Shown here: piece by piece, positions 2,995-33,851 of the stretch
Layout of the letters: the number at the start of each line of letters is the position of its first letter
Numbering within the stretch: position 1 is the first letter of the stretch
Assembly (NCBI RefSeq): GCF_026248685.1
Contig: NZ_CP111036.1
Location: 248,001 to 312,000 of the forward strand
Source: Haladaptatus caseinilyticus
GTDB taxonomy: Archaea; Halobacteriota; Halobacteria; Halobacteriales; Haladaptataceae
DNA length: 64,000 bases
Direction: 5' to 3'
Notes under the pieces: generated by a model
Seen by the model: only the letters and a program-made list of their open reading frames with translations
Told to the model about the DNA's origin: nothing
Database searches by the model: none
Made by a program: the position numbers and the translations under genes

Positions 2995-3546
2995 ATGGCT
3001 AGCTCCGGACTCTCGCAGGATCAGGTGTTCGAGGTTCTCAAGAGTCCGCGTCGGCGATACGCGCTCTACTTCCTTCGAAGAGAAGGGGGAACTGTCGAAC
3101 TGTCTGACCTGACCGAGCAAGTTGCGGCGTGGGAAAACGATACCACGCCCACAGAACTGACGAGTGACCAGCGAAAGCGTGTTTACATCTCGCTCTATCA
3201 GACGCATCTCCCGAAGCTAGATGACGCTCGAATCATCGAGTACGACCGCGAAGACGGAGTCGTAAGTCTTTCTCGTCGCGCACGGGAACTGGATACCTAT
3301 CTTGGCGACGTCTCCCGCCCGGAAATTCCGTGGGACAGATACTATCTCGCGCTCTCGTTGGGAAGTATCCTGCTCGTACTCGGCGTCTGGTTCGAAATCT
3401 ATCCGTTCGTTCTTCTCCCGGGGATCGCGACGGCGATGATAATTCTCGTCGCCTACGCACTCTCGGCGATCGGCCAATACTTCTACTATCGGCGGCGAAC
3501 CGTCAAAGGAACGCCGCCGGAGTTACGGCGCGCCGAAGGACAGTGA
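2995..3546 (+). CDS. DUF7344 winged-helix protein with two C-terminal membrane segments
   Basis: 183 residues. Residues 8-105 form a winged-helix domain of the haloarchaeal DUF7344 type: a helix ending KSPRRRYALYFLRR, an ELSDLTEQVAAWE segment, then YISLYQTHLPKLDDARIIEYD, the usual recognition-helix and wing signature. Two hydrophobic segments follow at about 116-133 and 136-158, then a basic tail. This should be a membrane-tethered transcription regulator with the DNA-binding domain in the cytoplasm. It stands alone between divergent and convergent neighbours. The family is known only as a predicted regulator; targets are unknown. Confidence 0.85.
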   Translation: MASSGLSQDQVFEVLKSPRRRYALYFLRREGGTVELSDLTEQVAAWENDTTPTELTSDQRKRVYISLYQTHLPKLDDARIIEYDREDGVVSLSRRARELDTYLGDVSRPEIPWDRYYLALSLGSILLVLGVWFEIYPFVLLPGIATAMIILVAYALSAIGQYFYYRRRTVKGTPPELRRAEGQ

Positions 3547-20112: not shown

Positions 20113-20478
20113 TTACCGTGGACGTTCTATCTCGCCCGCCAAGTCGAGATACTGGTCGAATGGAATATCCGACTCGCCACATCGAATCTCGTCGCCGCTG
20201 CGTTCGACGACGCCGACTTCCTCCATCTTCGGCAGATGTTTGTGGTGTAGTTCGGCCAGGATGTATTTTTCGTCGGACGTATCCATGTCCGAGTCCCAAC
20301 CCGTGAGTTGCCGGGCCAGTTCCCCGATCGTCACCGCATCGTCCTGCCGCCGAAGATAGTATAATGCATAGCGGCGTCGATGGTCGGCGAGAACTTCCAT
20401 GAGGGCGTCGAGGTCGTCTGACCCAAGGCCGTTCGATTCCGCACCCATTTTCGGTACGTCTGGCGAGTCAGAGCTCAT
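20113..20478 (-). CDS. DUF7344 winged-helix regulator (soluble)
   Basis: About 121 residues from ATG 20478; an upstream ATG (20505) would add nine residues. The DUF7344 pattern is complete: LADHRRRYALYYLRR, TIGELARQLTGWD, YILAELHHKHLPKMEEVGVVER, then the wing. Unlike the copy at 2995 it has no membrane segment, so it is a cytoplasmic predicted regulator. It lies about 240 bases from the protease gene in the same direction and could control it, but nothing in the sequence proves that. Confidence 0.85.
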   Translation of the reverse strand: MSSDSPDVPKMGAESNGLGSDDLDALMEVLADHRRRYALYYLRRQDDAVTIGELARQLTGWDSDMDTSDEKYILAELHHKHLPKMEEVGVVERSGDEIRCGESDIPFDQYLDLAGEIERPR

Positions 20479-24502: not shown

Positions 24503-24591
24503 AAGCTGTTCGAAGGGATTATCGTCAATATCGTCACACCCGGTGAAATAGCTACAAATCCATAACTCCGTCAATTTCGAACCCAACTCCA

Positions 24592-24762
24592 ATGACCGAC
24601 GACGAAATCTTAGGTACGACGAAAATCGCCCAACGGTGGCGAATTAGCCTCATCAAAGATGTGCGCAAAATATTCGAGAAACGGGGTGTCGAACTCGAAG
24701 AAGGGGATAGAGTCGTATTCGTGGAACGGGACGGCGATATCGTCATCGAACCGGCTAAATGA
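24592..24762 (+). CDS. AbrB/MazE/SpoVT-type small DNA-binding protein
   Basis: 56 residues, read by hand because it is short. MTDDEILGTTKIAQRWRISL is followed by IKDVRKIFEKRGVELEEGDRVVFVERDGDIVIEPAK, the swapped-hairpin AbrB fold: a strand, a short helix, then the typical GDRVVFVERDGDIVIEP hairpin. Such proteins are dimeric DNA binders, either global regulators or the antitoxin half of toxin-antitoxin pairs. No PIN or MazF-like toxin follows: the next gene starts 215 bases downstream and is a signalling protein. A solitary regulator is therefore more likely. Confidence 0.8.
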   Translation: MTDDEILGTTKIAQRWRISLIKDVRKIFEKRGVELEEGDRVVFVERDGDIVIEPAK

Positions 24763-24977
24763 TGAGACCATTCGATAGAAGTTCAAATATAGTTCTGAAA
24801 TGTATAACCATTAAAGACGTTGGGAATTGGACAAAGATGGTCAAAATGCAGTGACCCTAGCTCGACAGTTTAGTTCGATTGGTAGATATCTTTATTATTA
24901 TGGAACGCTTTCACCTGTAGTGTCTGACGATAACTCCTTCACCGGAGTAAAAGAAATAAACCGATGCTACCGATATC

Positions 24978-26189
24978 ATGAAGTCAACCGCTGACCCGAC
25001 TCCATCCGCGCGAAACGTGCTCCTTTTTTGCCCAGCTGTCGATGACGAGACCGACACGAAACGGCTCTCTCGACGTTCACCCATCGACCCGACCACGTGT
25101 AATGCGTTGTTCCTCTCCTACGAGCGGCCACCGGAGGAACTGCTCGAGCGCTGGCAGTCGCATGTCGGTGAAAAACCGGCCGAGTTCGGAGCTATCGCCG
25201 TCGGTAAGTACAGTTCGTCACCTCAGGCAGAGGTCCTTCGCTCGGACACCGACCGAAACATCGTCTCGATAGCCAACCCCGAACGTCTCGGACGACTCCA
25301 AACTGCTGTCTACCTCTTTCTCGACCAATGGTCCGCGAACGACCAGCAGTCGATGCTCTATTTCGACTCCATTACCGCGATGCTCCGTTACGTGAATCGA
25401 ACGACCGCGTTTCGATTTCTTCACTCGCTTACCGATTCCCTCCGACGACTCGGCGTGACCGCACATTTCTACATGAATCCGGACGTACACGACGAAGAGA
25501 CGCTTGCCATTTTTCGGCCGCTGTTCGACACTGTCGTCGGTGACCAGACGAAACCTGAACGAGCGGTTTCGCCGGACGTACTCTCGACTCTCTTTACCTC
25601 CTCTCGACGGCGCTCAGTCTGCCGATATCTGGTCGAAGTGGCCGACCGTGCGACCGTCGCGACCGTGGCGGAGCGGATCGCGGAGTGGGAGGTCGAGGGA
25701 ACGCCGAGCAGCGAGATGCGGGAACGGGTCCACATCACGCTTCGGCACGTCCACCTCCCGAAATTGGTCGAGGCGGGCGTCGTCGAACTCGACGGGGAAA
25801 CCGTCAGCGCGGCCGAGGATAGCATCGATCTGGAACGATACAACCGGATCGTGAATGGCGGCGACCCGGTCCGCAAAACGGAGCCGACGATGTCGGATAC
25901 TGCGGCGCTCCCGACGACGAACGTTCCGAACGACCAATCGAGCGAAACCTACTGGACGGTGTACGGTACCGCCCGGGATTCGGTCGTAGTGATGTTGGCC
26001 CGTGCACTCGGCGCCGTTTTGGACGTCCACCCGACGGAGCTGCGACCCGTCCTCTCCGATATCATCGATATCGACGCACTGCAACGACTCGACGAGCGCG
26101 AGGAAACGTCCGTCTACGCGATGTTCAACTACGGGGAGTACGAAGTGGTCGTGGACGGTGGCCAGATTCGGTTGTACGAATCGAGTTGA
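24978..26189 (+). CDS. Three-domain signalling protein: DUF7504-like, DUF7344, HalOD1
   Basis: 403 residues. Residues about 12-190 resemble the haloarchaeal DUF7504 RecA-like domain: ARNVLLFCPAVDDE, NALFLSYERPPEELLERWQ, SMLYFDSITAMLRYVNRTTAFRFLH, HFYMNPDVHDEETL. There is no clear Walker A. Residues about 195-290 are a DUF7344 winged helix: FTSSRRRSVCRYLVEVADRA, RVHITLRHVHLPKLVEAGVVE. Residues about 315-402 are a HalOD1 output domain: TARDSVVVMLARALGAV, then FNYGEYEVVVDGGQIRLYE. It combines three predicted signal or regulatory modules and probably links a sensory ATPase-like fold to DNA binding. Family names are from memory. Confidence 0.82.
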   Translation: MKSTADPTPSARNVLLFCPAVDDETDTKRLSRRSPIDPTTCNALFLSYERPPEELLERWQSHVGEKPAEFGAIAVGKYSSSPQAEVLRSDTDRNIVSIANPERLGRLQTAVYLFLDQWSANDQQSMLYFDSITAMLRYVNRTTAFRFLHSLTDSLRRLGVTAHFYMNPDVHDEETLAIFRPLFDTVVGDQTKPERAVSPDVLSTLFTSSRRRSVCRYLVEVADRATVATVAERIAEWEVEGTPSSEMRERVHITLRHVHLPKLVEAGVVELDGETVSAAEDSIDLERYNRIVNGGDPVRKTEPTMSDTAALPTTNVPNDQSSETYWTVYGTARDSVVVMLARALGAVLDVHPTELRPVLSDIIDIDALQRLDEREETSVYAMFNYGEYEVVVDGGQIRLYESS

Positions 26190-26196
26190 GCGGTTC

Positions 26197-28182
26197 TCAG
26201 GCTAGCCACTCGTCCGGTTTCGTGTTGTAATCGACTTCCGTCGCGGTGATGTCCTCGACGTCGCTCCACGGGAGATCGTGTATCTCGAACTCCTCGCCGT
26301 CGTAGCGCAGGAGTTTTCCTTTCTCTTCCGGTTCCGGCTCGCGGTCACGACGACGGGCGATTTCAGCATCGCGTTCGTCCACTTCCTTCACGATGGTCTT
26401 CAAGTTCACCGGGCGACCCCAGAGGTCGTAGATGCGTTCCAACGTTCGTGTGGCCTGTCCGATGTCGAGCATGACGCCGTTGTAGTGATGTCCCAACAGC
26501 AACTCGTTGCGGTTGTCGTAGTTACCGTCGTAGACCGCGATCGTTGGCTTGCCGAAGTTGGTGAACTGGAGCATCAACTTCTTTTTCACGTCCTCGTACT
26601 GCGCACTCGTCACGCGGTAATCGCCGGTCGTCTGGCTGAACTCGTAGGTGAAATAGTTGTTGTCGGTGACGAACTCCTTCGTCAGGAAGCCATCGAGGAA
26701 CGTCACGTCGTTGTGGCTGGCCCTGACTTCGTACATTCGGTTCCATCCGACGGCGTAGTCAACGTCGGCCATGGCTTCCGCGACGGTCTCGTAGCGTTCG
26801 TCGTCCATCAGGTAGCGAGCGTACTGCTCCAGGTCGGCTTGGCTAATGGATTCGAGGAACCCACGGTTCTGAAGTTTGTTGAGCGAGAAATGACGCTCCG
26901 CCAATCCGTCGTAGGAGAGCACCTTCCACGGATGACGGTCCACGTCGATTTTGCCCGCTTTCGCACGCTCCAACCCTTCGGAGTCGATTTTGGCGGAGTC
27001 AAGCGATTCGAGGTCGGCGAGCGTCTCGGCGTTCACGACTTCGAGTTCCGGTCGTGGTTCGAGCAGTTCGTTCACTTCGTCGAAATCGACGACATCGTGG
27101 AAGTTCCGCCACGAGATTCCCTTCACACGCAGGAGTTTTCGAACGACTTCCCGTCGGTTTTCCGTGTTCTCGATGTACTCCCACAGTTGTTTGCCGAGTT
27201 TGTAGGGATTGAGACCGGGTGATCCGAGGACGCGTGCTTGGTGGTCCGCGTACTCGATGAACTCGTCGGTTCCGGCGAAAGACTCCTCGCCCATCATCAA
27301 CGACTCCCAGTAGGCGGCCCATCCCTCGTTCATCACTTTCGTCGTCTTCTGGGCCGCGAAGTAGTACGACTCGGTTCGAAGCATCTCCAGGATTTCTTTC
27401 TGCCAATCCTCCATCTCGACCGCTTTGCCCTCGTCCGGATCGTAGGCACGTCCGTGGTCGCGGAGGAACGCGAGCAAGTCCTTTTCCGGTTCTTCGAGCT
27501 TTCCGGCACGCTTTTCGCGCTGTGCTTCGAGCCACTCCTCGTCGAATACCTCGTCCCGAACCTCGTCACTGAGGTTCATCTCCGCGAGCTGGTCGGCGAT
27601 TTCGTCCGTTTCACGCTCCTCGTCCTCTTTCGTCCTGTGCTGGTTTTTGAATGCGTGATGTTGGTCGATGTTGTCCTGAAGACAGAGCACGTTGTCGATC
27701 CACTTTTCGACCGCCTCCCTGTCGATTTCCGGGTCGGCCATGATGGAGCGAACGCGATTCGCGTGCCGTTCGAGGAGTGCCGCCGCGTTGAGTTCGTCGG
27801 CGAACATTCCGTACCACCGGTTGTTGGCGAAGAAATCCGAGTGGGCTTCGACGTGCGTGATGACCGCCTTCTGGTCGGCGATACTGTTCGACTCCTGAAG
27901 GAAGGCGTGGGCTGGATCGTCGTTGATGACGATTTCGAACGCCTTACCGCCCGCGTACTGGCCTTGCTTTTGCTGGCGGTCGTATTTCATCCCCCATCGC
28001 CAATGCGGGTATCGCTCCTGGAACCCATCGTACGCGATGAGTTCGTTCATCTCGTCGTAATCGATGATCCAGTACTTGACGGGATACGGGTCGAGACCGA
28101 GCTTTTTTGCGAGCTTTCGCGCTTCGACGACCGGCTCGCGCACCCGCTCGGCCTCGCGCTTGGTTTCGATTCGTTCGTTCAT
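26197..28182 (-). CDS. SpoVR family protein
   Basis: 661 residues, including the full SpoVR/YcgB domain. Landmarks are [20 protein letters not shown], the conserved [50 protein letters not shown], and [14 protein letters not shown] in the middle. It is longer than many bacterial homologues because of a roughly 60-residue charged insertion ([20 protein letters not shown] region). The molecular activity is unknown; in Bacillus SpoVR affects the spore cortex, and in E. coli ycgB is a stress-induced partner of yeaG-yeaH. Last gene of the PrkA operon, overlapping the DUF444 gene by ATGA. Confidence 0.95.
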
Positions 28183-29486
28183 TCTGCCTCCGTGCTCAGG
28201 ATCTCGTAAATCGCCTTGGTCACGTCCTCCGGCCCGTTGACGTAACTGACTGCCACGTTGTCCGCCTCGGCGAAGTGCCGCTCCACTTCCTCCGCGTGGG
28301 TCGCGTTGATGGCTTTTCCTTCCGGTTGTGTCTCCACGTAGGCGTGGAGGTTCGCCGGAATATTCTCCATCATGGGAACGACGTTCTCCTCGGTGTCGTT
28401 TCGGCTGTTCTCGCTGTCACCCGCCGCGAACACGTAGCGGTTCCAGTCCGCCCACGGGAACTCCTCTTCGAGGATCGCGGCGGCGAGTTCGTAGGCCGAC
28501 GAGATTTTGGTCCCGCCGCCCGAGCGAATGCCGAAGAACTCGTTTCGCTCGACCCGCCACGCCTCCGCATCGTGGGCGATGTAGACGAACTCGGCATTGT
28601 CGTACTTGCCCGTCAGATACCAGTCTAGTGGTGTGAACGTGCGTTCGACCAGTTCGCGCTTTTTTTCCCGCATCGACCCGGAGACGTCGCGGATGTTGAC
28701 GACGACGACGTTCTTCTCGCGTTCTTCGATAATTTCGGGGTAGCGATAGCGTTCGTCTTCCCGCCTGAATGGAACGTGGCGGATCCCTTGTTCCCGAATC
28801 TTCTGGGCCGTGCTCATCGGGGTCACCCGACGCTCCATCTCTTCGATGCTCTCCCACTTGGTACGCTCCTCGGCGGACAGCGCGTCGTAGTTCTCCTCGA
28901 CCCACCGTTTCGAGACGGTGATGTTCTTTTCACGGGCCCAGTTGAACACCTCGTCCGGCCCCCAGCTTTCCACCCCCATCGCTTCGCGGACGTAGTTGGG
29001 GTCGAAGTCCATCGCCAGTTTGCGTTTCAGCCCCTCCTTGAACATCCGTTCGAAATCGAGCGTGCTGTCGGGGCCGGTCTTCGTCATGTCGGTGAAGTCG
29101 CCCTCGATTTCCTCGATGACTTCCTTCCCCTTGGGTTCGAGTTCGAGGCCGAGTTCGTCGTCCAGTTCCTGGGCGAACTCCTCGGGGTCCATCTCGTAGT
29201 AGTCGTGATCGCCCGATTCGTCGCCGGGTTCACCCTCTTCCCCGTCGTCGCCGGGTTGGGGCTGGGGCTGACCGACCGGGTCGCCCACATCGGGATTGCC
29301 TTGGCCGACGCCACCCCTGTCCCGTTGGTCGTAACGGAACTCGGGCAAATCGACGATTTTGATGGGAATGTGTATCTCGTCGGGGAGACTCTGTCCGAGA
29401 TCGCCGTACTGAATGAACTCCGCGAGGTCTTCCCGACGATCTTCGCCGACTTCACGGTACCGTTCGAGGTCGTCTCTCAATCCCAT
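28179..29486 (-). CDS. DUF444/UPF0229 (YeaH-type) von Willebrand factor A protein
   Basis: 435 residues. The C-terminal half is a VWA domain with a metal-ion-dependent adhesion site: [10 protein letters not shown] (Asp 267, Ser 269, Ser 271) and [14 protein letters not shown]. The middle carries the DUF444 signature [17 protein letters not shown]. The N-terminus includes a low-complexity acidic and Gly/Pro-rich linker (about 58-95). In E. coli the homologue YeaH is co-expressed with the kinase YeaG under nitrogen and stationary-phase stress. Here it overlaps both neighbours (10 bases with the upstream kinase, 4 with spoVR). Confidence 0.95.
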
Positions 29487-31762
29487 TTGTAGCTCACCTG
29501 ATTCATGACGTGTTGGCTCGTCAGTTCAGCCGACGCCTCCGAATAGCCAAACAGCTCTTGGAGGTTCTGAATCGTCTCCTCTTTCACCTCGGCCGTCTCG
29601 GTGTTCGTCGGTGGATTCTCCCACTGGCTCGGGTTGAAATCCTCGTACACTCGGCGCACGTCGTCCCAGTCGTTGTTCGCGAGCACTGTCTTGATGATCG
29701 GTACCTCTTTCGGATCGATATCGCTCACTTCGAACTCGTCGTTACGACTCTCCCAGGCGTGACGGTTCAGCGCGGTGATGACCTTGTTCCGACGGAACTC
29801 GGCCACCGCGGGGCCCGGCTCGTGATCGACTTCGTACGCGTCCGGCCCGAATCGACCGAGATGCTCCGTCTCGAACACTTTCATTTTCAGTCCGTCGGGA
29901 TCGATTCGTTCACCGCGGTCGTTTTCCACCTCCTCGCCGGTCGCCCACGCGTAGACGTGTTCGATGTATTCGGCGACCGTCTCCTCGTCGACCCGGCGGT
30001 CGCGCATGATGGCATCGAGCACGTCGCTCTCCTGTTGCTGGAAGATGTAGTTTTTCACCGGCACGAGTCGGTTCTCGTACTCAGTGCGCTCGGCCGTCGA
30101 GAACACCGGAGCGTCCCCGATTCCTTCGGCCATCGCGTTCAGGATGTCCCGTGGCATGATGACCTGTTCGACGGGATACTCGGGATGATGGCGGTCGCGA
30201 ACTTCGTTGACCAATCCGGCGATAATATCTCGCGTGTACGTGACCGGAATCCCGCCGGACCCGTCGGCCGCGTCGTCGTCGAAGTCGAAATCGTCCTTGT
30301 CGATGCGCTCGTCGCCGTCCAACAAGTATCCGCGGTCGTACAGCACCGCCTTGTCCACGAGGTCGAGTCCGGCGGGGAGGTCGGTCCCGTCGAGGCGAGA
30401 CACGACGCTGTAGAGCGCCGCGGCTTCGATCGCGTGCGGCGACAGTTCGCGTTCCGCGACGGCGTCACCGTCGCGGACGTGAACCGAGATCGGTTCTCGG
30501 ATCCACGCTTCGAGTTCGTCGTACGTATCCGCCTGCCACACGGGAGTCTCGTTCGTGAGTTCACGCCGGATGAGCTCGGCCTCCAAACTGAGGTTCGTCA
30601 GGTAGCCGAACTCCCGTCGGTCGAGTCGGCGTTTCAGCGCCCGGAGCGGATCCGCTCCGCCGGCATCGGCGTGCTGGTTCAACTGGGCTTCGAGGTCGGG
30701 ATTCGAGATGATGACCAACTGCGTGTCGATATCCATCTGGATGCCCTTGTCCAACTTCACCGACTTCTCGTCCGGCACGTTGAGCAGTTTCTGGAGTAAG
30801 TCTGCGTGCTGGGCCGCATCTTCCACGATGGTCAGCAGGCCGTTGCCCTGCGAGAGGACGCCGTCGTAGCTGAACGCCTGCGGGTTCTTCCGTCCGCGGG
30901 AGTCGAGTTCCTGCAGCATCCCCTGCATCCAACTGCCGACCAGCCGCTGTTTCGGTCTGCCACTGTCCTCCGAGTGGAGGACGCCGATACCGTCGCCGAT
31001 GTCTACGACGTAGTTTTTCACCCGGAGATGTGCCGGGTCGGTAATCGCCGAGAACAGTTCTTCCTCCCCGTTGCGCCGATACTGCTCCTCCAGATAATCG
31101 TACGCTTCCCGACTGAACGGGTCGAGTTTGCCCTCGACGAGCACGTCGATGTGGTCGTCGAGTCCGCCGTTCAACTGTTCGAGCAGCTCCTCGCGAACCG
31201 CTGGCGGGAAGACGAGCAGTGGATGCGACTGTACGGGACTCGCGTACCAGTTTTCCTCGCTCGTCGCGGTCACGTCGTCGCCGTAACTGAGCCCCGGCGA
31301 CTCCGTCGCGGTGGCGATGTTCCACTCGATGGTGTACCGTCGGCCTTCCGGCGTCTTCGAGTACTCGCGCAACCCGTTGACTAGACACCGTTTGAGTTCG
31401 GACTTTCCGGTTGCCGTCGGTCCGGCGAACCAGATAATCTTCTCCTCTTTCCCTCGACGAGCGGCGATCGAACGCAAGTCGTCCACGAACGCGTTCAACA
31501 CTTCGGTGTTGCCGAGGATTGCGTGCTCGCCGCCGTTGTGCGGGTCGTCGAAGAACCGGTAGCGTTCCTTCTCATCCCCCTCCTCGATGACCGTTCGTGT
31601 ACCCATCGACTCGATGGCCTCCAAGAGGTACTTGCTCGCGTGCGAGGCGATGGTCGGGTTTTCGAACGCCGCGTCTACGTATTCCGCGAGGCTCATCGGC
31701 TCCTCGTAGGTCTCGCGGAGTTCGTGGTCGGCATCGGTGATGTAGTCGCTTCCTTCGGACAC
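29477..31762 (-). CDS. PrkA-type serine protein kinase, second copy
   Basis: About 761 residues from GTG 31762. A GGAGG stretch lies just upstream, inside the end of the previous gene, and the frame further upstream overlaps that gene. N-terminal AAA-like PrkA domain with Walker [10 protein letters not shown] (residues 114-122) and [18 protein letters not shown]. The sensor-like region [19 protein letters not shown] follows. The C-terminal part carries the kinase region in PrkA/YeaG proteins. It is clearly paralogous to the preceding gene but diverged: Walker A is GPTATGKS here and GPVGSGKS there. It is about 65 residues longer. Confidence 0.93.
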
Positions 31763-31766
31763 TGTG

Positions 31767-33851
31767 TTACTCCTCCATTTCGGCGCGGGCGACTTCTGCC
31801 CCGGCGAATTCGAGCACCTCCTTCGCGCCCTCACGCGAGTAGCCCTGTTCCATCAGCGCGTCTACCCATGCGTTCTGTTCGTCGTTATCCATCTCGTTGG
31901 CCGACACCAACGCCGAGAAGTTGATGTTGTGTTTCTTGTCCTCCCACAGTTTGCGTTCCAACGCTCGGCGGAGACGGTCGTTGTCCTGTGGGTTGAACGG
32001 CGACCCCTCGCGGGCACGCCGCGACACCCAGTTGGACACTTCCTGCCGGAAGTCGTCCTTGCGGTCCCGGGGGACTTCCAACTTCTCCTCGACGGCACGG
32101 AGGAAGCTCTCGTCCGGTTCCTGTTCGCGGCCGGTCAGTTCGTCCTCGACGGTGGCGTTGTCGATGTACGCCATGACGTGGTCCATGTACTTCTCGCCCT
32201 GCCGCTGGATTTCGTCGATATCGTAGGCGAGTGCGTGACGCACGTCCTCGATGGCACGCTCGCGGTACTCGCCGCGAACACCTTCGAGGTAGCGGTAGTA
32301 CGTCTCGAAGTTCTCCTCCGGAATCGAACCGTGGTTCTCCAAGTTCTCCTCGAAGTGGTTGAACACCGACAACGGACTGAGGAACCCACGGCTGCGATGG
32401 GTGGAGTTCATGATGGCCTCGGCGATTTCGTCGCCGATGAACCGTGCCGAGACGCCCTCCATCCCTTCGCCGATGTCGGCTTTCTCCTCTGCCTCCTCGC
32501 GGAGCTTTTTCACGTCGATGTCGTCGCTGTCCTCGGTTTCGCCGTTGTAGGCTTTCGCCTTCTGGAGCAGGTCCACCATCTCGGTGTCGGGTTCCTCGAT
32601 GCGCGTCAGCACGCCGAAGAGGCCCGCCATTTCGAGGGTGTGTGGTTCGATATGCACGTCCGGCACGTCGGCGTTCCGGAGCATCTTCCGGTAGATATCG
32701 GCTTCCGACTCGTACTCGAGGACGTACGGGAAGTCGATGCGTTTCGTTCGGTCGTTGAACGCCTCCATCTTCTCGTCGCCTTTCTTATCCCGGTACTCGG
32801 GCATGTTCGTCCGGCCGACGATGACCTGGTCGATGTCGATACGCGGGTTGTTCTTCGGCTTGATAGTCTGTTCCTGCGTCGCGTGCAGGAAGTCGTAGAG
32901 GAACTCCCGCTGGAGTTTGAGCAGTTCTTCGCCGCTGAAGATGCCCCGGTTCGCGTTACAGAACGCGCCGGAGTAGTCGAACGCCCGCGGGTCGCTTTCG
33001 CCGTAGATGGCGATTTTCGAGTAGTTGACGTCACCCGTGAGTTCGGTCTCGTCCTGGTTTTTCTTGTCCTTCGGCTCGAACGTCTCGACTGCCTGTCGCT
33101 TGTTTTCGTCGGCGACGAGACGAATGATTTCGATGTGGTTTTCGAGCACCTGCTTGATGTCGTCGTCGTAGTACGCAAGCAGTTCGTCCATGTAGAACTC
33201 GCTCGCGGGGTCCAGCGCCTGCTCGTTTTTGATGGTGTACGGAGCGTCTAGCTCCTCGTTGATGTCGTCGATGACCGTCTGGCGCTGTTCGTATGGGAGC
33301 AGGACCAACGGGTCCTGGTTCATCGGCGAGCGGACCACGTCGTCCGCAGGGTCCTGATCTACGATGACGTCACAGAGGTTCGTCCACCGGAAGGTGTACA
33401 TGCGCCCCTCGTCACGGAGCGTGTAATCCTCGAAATATTTGCGAACCTGTCGGTCGAAGTCGGATTTCCCAGACCCGACGGGACCCAGTAACAGTTTGAT
33501 GCGTTTTTCCGGTCCGAGTCCGCGGGCACCGCTCTTTACCTTGTTTACGAACTCGTGCATCGCTCGGTGAATTTCGCGCCCGTAAAACGTGTTTTCCCCG
33601 TCGTGAAGGGGATCTTCGGACGCGAGTCGGTACTCGACGACACCGGTATCTTCGTCGTATTCGGTGCCGTAGTAATCGAACATATCGGCGACGCGCTGGT
33701 GGGCGTTCCGAGCGATCTTCGGATGCTCGTACACCTCTTGTAGGTACCAGTCGAACGATTTCGTTTCACGGAGGTCTTCCGGCATCGATTCCTGGTAGCT
33801 TCGACTGAGGTCGTCCAGCGTTTCCATGTCACCTTTCATTGTATCACGCAT
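31767..33851 (-). CDS. PrkA-type serine protein kinase, first copy
   Basis: 694 residues. Walker A LLGPVGSGKSD (residues 121-131), then MYTFRWTNLCDVIVDQDPAD and MNQDPLVLLPYEQRQ, the canonical PrkA region. RGIFSGEELLKLQREFLYDFLHATQE and IVGRTNMPEYRDKKGD follow, and the C-terminal kinase domain holds SVFNHFEENLENHG. PrkA/YeaG phosphorylates proteins on serine and works as a stress-response AAA kinase. ATG 33851, 33839 or 33827 could be the start. It leads the operon; the next gene's GTG is only 4 bases past its stop. Confidence 0.95.
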   Translation of the reverse strand: MRDTMKGDMETLDDLSRSYQESMPEDLRETKSFDWYLQEVYEHPKIARNAHQRVADMFDYYGTEYDEDTGVVEYRLASEDPLHDGENTFYGREIHRAMHEFVNKVKSGARGLGPEKRIKLLLGPVGSGKSDFDRQVRKYFEDYTLRDEGRMYTFRWTNLCDVIVDQDPADDVVRSPMNQDPLVLLPYEQRQTVIDDINEELDAPYTIKNEQALDPASEFYMDELLAYYDDDIKQVLENHIEIIRLVADENKRQAVETFEPKDKKNQDETELTGDVNYSKIAIYGESDPRAFDYSGAFCNANRGIFSGEELLKLQREFLYDFLHATQEQTIKPKNNPRIDIDQVIVGRTNMPEYRDKKGDEKMEAFNDRTKRIDFPYVLEYESEADIYRKMLRNADVPDVHIEPHTLEMAGLFGVLTRIEEPDTEMVDLLQKAKAYNGETEDSDDIDVKKLREEAEEKADIGEGMEGVSARFIGDEIAEAIMNSTHRSRGFLSPLSVFNHFEENLENHGSIPEENFETYYRYLEGVRGEYRERAIEDVRHALAYDIDEIQRQGEKYMDHVMAYIDNATVEDELTGREQEPDESFLRAVEEKLEVPRDRKDDFRQEVSNWVSRRAREGSPFNPQDNDRLRRALERKLWEDKKHNINFSALVSANEMDNDEQNAWVDALMEQGYSREGAKEVLEFAGAEVARAEMEE

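Follow-up and report, generated by a model that had tools for sequence, protein, structure and literature searches.

HalOD1 is among the commonest signalling domains of haloarchaea, and its mechanism is unknown. Over 2,000 HalOD1 proteins were known by 2017 (PMC5847659). Metal binding and possible enzymatic activity have been proposed for the domain on the basis of its (DE)hh(DEN) motifs, and the same study described proteins in which HalOD1 and an inactivated KaiC (iKaiC) are joined (Galperin et al. 2018, PMC5847659). DdfA, a stand-alone HalOD1 protein, decides cell shape in Haloferax, and its partners are unknown (PMC10869688). Here, we describe a gene of Haladaptatus caseinilyticus that combines HalOD1 with two further domains. 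It lies in a window (the whole stretch of DNA that was analysed) of 64,000 nucleotides.

24978 to 26189, forward strand: coding sequence, DUF7504-DUF7344-linker-HalOD1, 403 aa (open reading frame, Pfam, orthologues)

The reading frame is uninterrupted from the ATG at 24978 to the stop codon at 26187-26189. An earlier, sequence-only reading had proposed that three modules are joined in this single protein, and Pfam bears this out, assigning all three with scores above the curated cut-offs: DUF7504 (PF24336) at aa 13-187 (E 3.3e-24, 86.8 bits against 27), DUF7344 (PF24035) at aa 205-275 (E 5.3e-19, 68.8 bits against 27.8), and HalOD1 (PF18545) at aa 333-397 (E 1.7e-10, 41.3 bits against 26.3). 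The trio is not a product of chance, because five intact orthologues with 49-64% identity cover its full length, and because pN/pS between intact orthologues is 0.12-0.40 in each of the three domains, often lowest in HalOD1, while it is higher in the linker (about 0.37-1.0). Selection keeps all three domains of the protein and leaves the tether between them loose. A response-regulator architecture (REC-HalOD1) was ruled out, as Pfam gave no REC match. The protein scored 29.3 bits against the DdfA equivalog model (NF053557), which has a cut-off of 70. The top match in a viral library was a halovirus HalOD1 protein (E 6.7e-3).

The domains had also been described as normally separate. That description is right only in part, as pairwise fusions of DUF7504-DUF7344 and of HalOD1-DUF7504 are common; the full trio was seen only in Haladaptatus. 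Fusions of the first kind occur in several haloarchaeal families; those of the second kind, in which the order is reversed, were found in genome G030 and three times in the source genome (G000):

Contig C5, 553887 to 554984: HalOD1-DUF7504 fusion
Contig C1, 668323 to 669102: HalOD1-DUF7504 fusion
Contig C1, 2421378 to 2422166: HalOD1-DUF7504 fusion

In one of these three, a frame of 461 aa, HalOD1 is present twice. The trio is a combination of two known pairings. With moderate confidence, we consider it to be a soluble one-component regulator, in which a pseudo-KaiC domain gates a putative DNA-binding winged helix, and HalOD1 acts as an interaction module.

The features of the N-terminal domain are as follows:

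25014 to 25538, forward strand: DUF7504, predicted KaiC-type pseudo-ATPase domain, aa 13-187 (Pfam, KaiC profile matches)
25014 to 25076, forward strand: aa 13-33, NVLLFCPAVDDETDTKRLSRR, where Walker A has been lost (alignment)
25353 to 25376, forward strand: Walker-B-like strand MLYFDSIT, aa 126-133 (alignment)

The remark that no Walker A is visible here extends to the family: GxxxxGK[ST] was found in 0/40 aligned DUF7504 sequences, in six of which the aligned stretch begins past that position, and is likewise absent from the fusion protein. A relic, GPSMTGKR, occupies the position in the DUF7504 paralogue L133. Most rows retain the Walker-B-like hhhDS(L/I), with Asp in 30/40 and Ser in 34/40. 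A profile of the 40 sequences matched KaiC in the PDB around the Walker B strand (hmmsearch, E 2.4e-4), and FlaH weakly; alignment to KaiC ATPases of the same genome with hhalign covered residues 9-192 (E 5.7e-5, probability 66). The DUF7504 part thus combines sequence homology to KaiC ATPases with loss of Walker A, as an iKaiC does. Together, the profile matches and the missing motif support the suspected pseudo-ATPase, one of KaiC descent. A full-length AF2 model built from six orthologues had a mean pLDDT of 44; at this low confidence its N-terminal part resembled SRP GTPases and KaiC (Z 7-9), which lends weak support to a P-loop-like fold.

Because the P-loop is lost, this KaiC-superfamily domain would serve as a sensor or as an assembly or docking surface rather than as an ATPase. 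Many DUF7504 members share a conserved stretch, H-F-H-x-D-P-x-A-H-D (His163 in 27/40, His165 in 25/40, His171 in 20/40, and Asp172 in 36/40), which, speculatively, could be a ligand site. Elsewhere in the source genome, a KaiC-family ATPase gene is followed by a DUF7504 gene on the same strand (contig C1, 565936-567834).

The domain that follows is a predicted winged helix, as the sequence-only reading had expected of the middle of the protein:

25590 to 25802, forward strand: DUF7344, predicted winged helix, aa 205-275 (Pfam, AF2 model, fold match)

In deep full-length alignments, MAFFT misplaced HalOD1 fragments, and only the C-terminal half was therefore well modelled. The AF2 model of residues 196-403 had a mean pLDDT of 85 and a pTM of 0.78, with a pLDDT of about 95 in the DUF7344 part. 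In VIA-align, this part matched CadC, SmtB, HlyU, and the haloarchaeal RosR with Z about 10-10.7, CadC and RosR scoring 10.7; rmsd was 2.0-2.4 over 82-88 residues for CadC, SmtB, and RosR. The winged helix took up the list of PDB fold matches. Foldseek alone gave no significant match for the winged-helix model (E 0.09), and the sequence of the C-terminal half, used as a query against the PDB, returned no credible match. DUF7344 is accordingly modelled as an ArsR-like winged helix, which would be dimeric, would be controlled by DUF7504, and would contact DNA.

DNA binding by the fusion protein is not guaranteed, since its predicted recognition helix is not strongly basic: across the fused proteins its net charge lies between -3 and +1, whereas 20 other DUF7344s average +0.95. 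In ORC and cullins, winged helices take part in oligomerisation and in the binding of partners. Since the helix lacks a strong positive charge, and is neutral or acidic in several orthologues, the protein could instead be an interaction hub with no role in DNA binding. Its pseudo-KaiC and winged helix would then serve oligomerisation and partner binding, and HalOD1 would pass a signal on to another partner, for instance a pathway of cell shape or motility. The winged helix also resembles Orc1/Cdc6 domains (Z about 9-10), in keeping with such a hub, as is the control of Haloferax cell shape by the stand-alone DdfA (PMC10869688). However, the best structural matches are DNA-binding repressors of the ArsR family and haloarchaeal RosR. 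Haloarchaeal DNA-binding proteins, moreover, can be acidic overall. We consider a pure hub unlikely, and prefer the one-component regulator.

HalOD1 follows the winged helix after a linker:

25803 to 25952, forward strand: linker, aa 276-325, which evolves fast and is modelled as disordered in part (pN/pS, pLDDT)
25974 to 26168, forward strand: HalOD1, aa 333-397 (Pfam, AF2 model)
26058 to 26084, forward strand: acidic double motif of HalOD1, aa 361-369, which reads DIIDIDALQ and so ends in Gln (alignment)

In the AF2 model, pLDDT falls to about 44 at aa 296-315 of the linker and is about 90 in HalOD1, which is modelled as b-a-a-a-b-b-b. The first acidic motif, DIID, is present, and the second, DALQ, is degenerate, with Gln in place of Asp, Asn, or Glu. 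The motifs from which metal-dependent catalysis was proposed (Galperin et al. 2018, PMC5847659) would allow HalOD1 to be an enzyme that is brought to DNA by the winged helix and switched on by the pseudo-KaiC domain. Against this, the final Gln is invariant in the 6/6 intact fused proteins, while that position holds Asp, Asn, or Glu in 55/60 other HalOD1s and Gln in 0/60. The substitution thus argues against metal-dependent activity in the fusion protein, though not against homology at the profile level, and makes an enzyme improbable here. In the regulator that we favour, HalOD1 would rather be an interaction or dimerisation module of the winged helix, held on the flexible linker.

The two domains of the C-terminal half are also linked as separate genes. 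Profile searches of the source genome gave 66 DUF7344, 52 HalOD1, and 16 DUF7504 matches. With the fusion gene left out, 22/51 HalOD1s had a DUF7344 no more than 1.5 kb away, where 2.25 were expected. This count was reached in 0/2,000 rotations of the positions along each contig, for which three of the contig sizes were estimates. Five further genomes, each of a different other family (G082, G083, G030, G084, and G059; most contig sizes approximate), gave 21/108 against 2.5 expected, again reached in 0/2,000 rotations. HalOD1 and DUF7344 genes therefore adjoin about 8-10 times above chance across six genomes of six families, an adjacency that is new here. The earlier reading had named split genes with no functional link as a point that would speak against it; the split DUF7344 and HalOD1 genes instead adjoin far above chance. 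The signal is weaker on the main chromosome alone (4/19 against 0.58 expected, p 0.002), suggesting that shared genomic islands explain part of the excess.

By a count made by hand, the two gene centres lay within 600 bp of each other in 22 pairs. Of these, 14 were on the same strand with DUF7344 first, so that DUF7344 led in 14/16 same-strand pairs (p 0.002). This is also the order in the fusion. In five pairs, the HalOD1 start and the DUF7344 stop were very close, the start falling between 17 nt upstream and 5 nt downstream of the stop, and some pairs overlapped by 17 nt. The fusion would do in one chain what the two separate proteins encoded by adjoining DUF7344 and HalOD1 genes do. Two further DUF7344 genes lie within the window, at 3028-3267 (forward strand) and 20200-20397 (reverse strand; coordinates converted). 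On contig C1 (199686-201163), the source genome has a gene for a DUF7504-DUF7344 protein and, on the same strand some 450 bp upstream, a gene for HalOD1 alone. It thus carries the trio as two genes.

In a sample of 391 genomes of the class, Haladaptatus alone yielded the full trio, at one locus in nine genomes; no further full-length match reached E <= 1e-40, a threshold that more diverged trios could escape. All nine Haladaptatus genomes examined hold the gene or a remnant of it, and it is intact in 6/9. A convergent spoVR adjoins it in all nine, and a 3HCDH-ECH gene lies on the opposite side in all but G002, whose flank is too short or too changed for it to be seen. In G009, from another genus of the same family, the 3HCDH-ECH gene adjoins spoVR without the fusion gene, and no match to the fusion gene was found within 1.5 kb of spoVR in the seven g3 genomes. 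The fusion gene was therefore gained in, or retained only by, Haladaptatus. In the window, spoVR, DUF444, and prkA form a run convergent to the fusion gene (26197-31834, reverse strand).

Three copies are damaged. That of G004 contains two in-frame stops, and those of G002 and G006 have lost the N-terminal part, G002 retaining DUF7344-HalOD1 and G006 less, so that the sensor part is dispensable there. These losses, together with the bare flanking genes of G009, the nearest other genus, could mean that the gene is a random, lineage-specific shuffle of modules that has no important role and is decaying. Purifying constraint on all three domains, however, speaks against this, as do the constraint that persists on what the truncated copies retain of DUF7344-HalOD1, the six intact genes, and a promoter-like element that has been kept. 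A dispensable gene thus seems a poor explanation, and a maintained regulator remains our preferred one.

This promoter-like element is one of two conserved upstream of the gene:

24885 to 24899, forward strand: conserved TATA-box-like element GATATCTTTATTATT, nearly identical in the 7/7 Haladaptatus upstream regions aligned
24922 to 24931, forward strand: conserved element GTCTGACGAT, present in 7/7 upstream regions, which may mark the start site or serve as an operator

The second has the consensus GTC[AT]GACGAT in all seven and lies near the expected start site, where it may be a start-site or operator element. With a TATA-like element and a second one at this position, autoregulation through the conserved upstream element is possible. 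A small AbrB/MazE-like reading frame lies just upstream (24550-24759, forward strand; 21 bits, below the Pfam cut-off of 24.7), and DNA resembling this region is also found upstream of three orthologues.

As a regulator, the protein would presumably respond to a signal, have a partner, and bind DNA at target genes. More tentatively, and with rather low confidence, HalOD1 in general might be a dedicated partner of DUF7344 winged-helix regulators, the two proteins forming a haloarchaea-wide switch that each genome holds in dozens of copies. The Haladaptatus protein would then be a version of this switch that is fused by nature and gated by a pseudo-KaiC domain. The fusion of HalOD1 to a winged helix and the gene pairing above chance point to a specific, testable partner for HalOD1.

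The names DUF7344 and DUF7504 did not occur in the literature searched, and the described systems each share part of this architecture. The HalOD1-iKaiC proteins (PF18545-PF24336) likewise join HalOD1 to an inactivated KaiC-like domain within a single chain. In the examples examined, however, HalOD1 is N-terminal with no winged helix in between, whereas the fusion protein has the reverse order, with DUF7344 inserted. Haloarchaeal DUF7504-DUF7344 two-domain proteins share the first two domains and their order, at about 30% identity, but lack HalOD1 at the C-terminus. ArsR/SmtB regulators and haloarchaeal RosR share the predicted fold of the middle domain, a likeness known from fold rather than from membership at the sequence level, and differ in the company that this domain keeps. 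KaiC and ArlH/FlaH are distant relatives of the N-terminal domain, from which the fusion protein differs in having neither a Walker A nor a second ATPase domain. The protein is a new variant of the haloarchaeal iKaiC/HalOD1 signalling proteins, and the broader lead is the pairing of HalOD1 with DUF7344.
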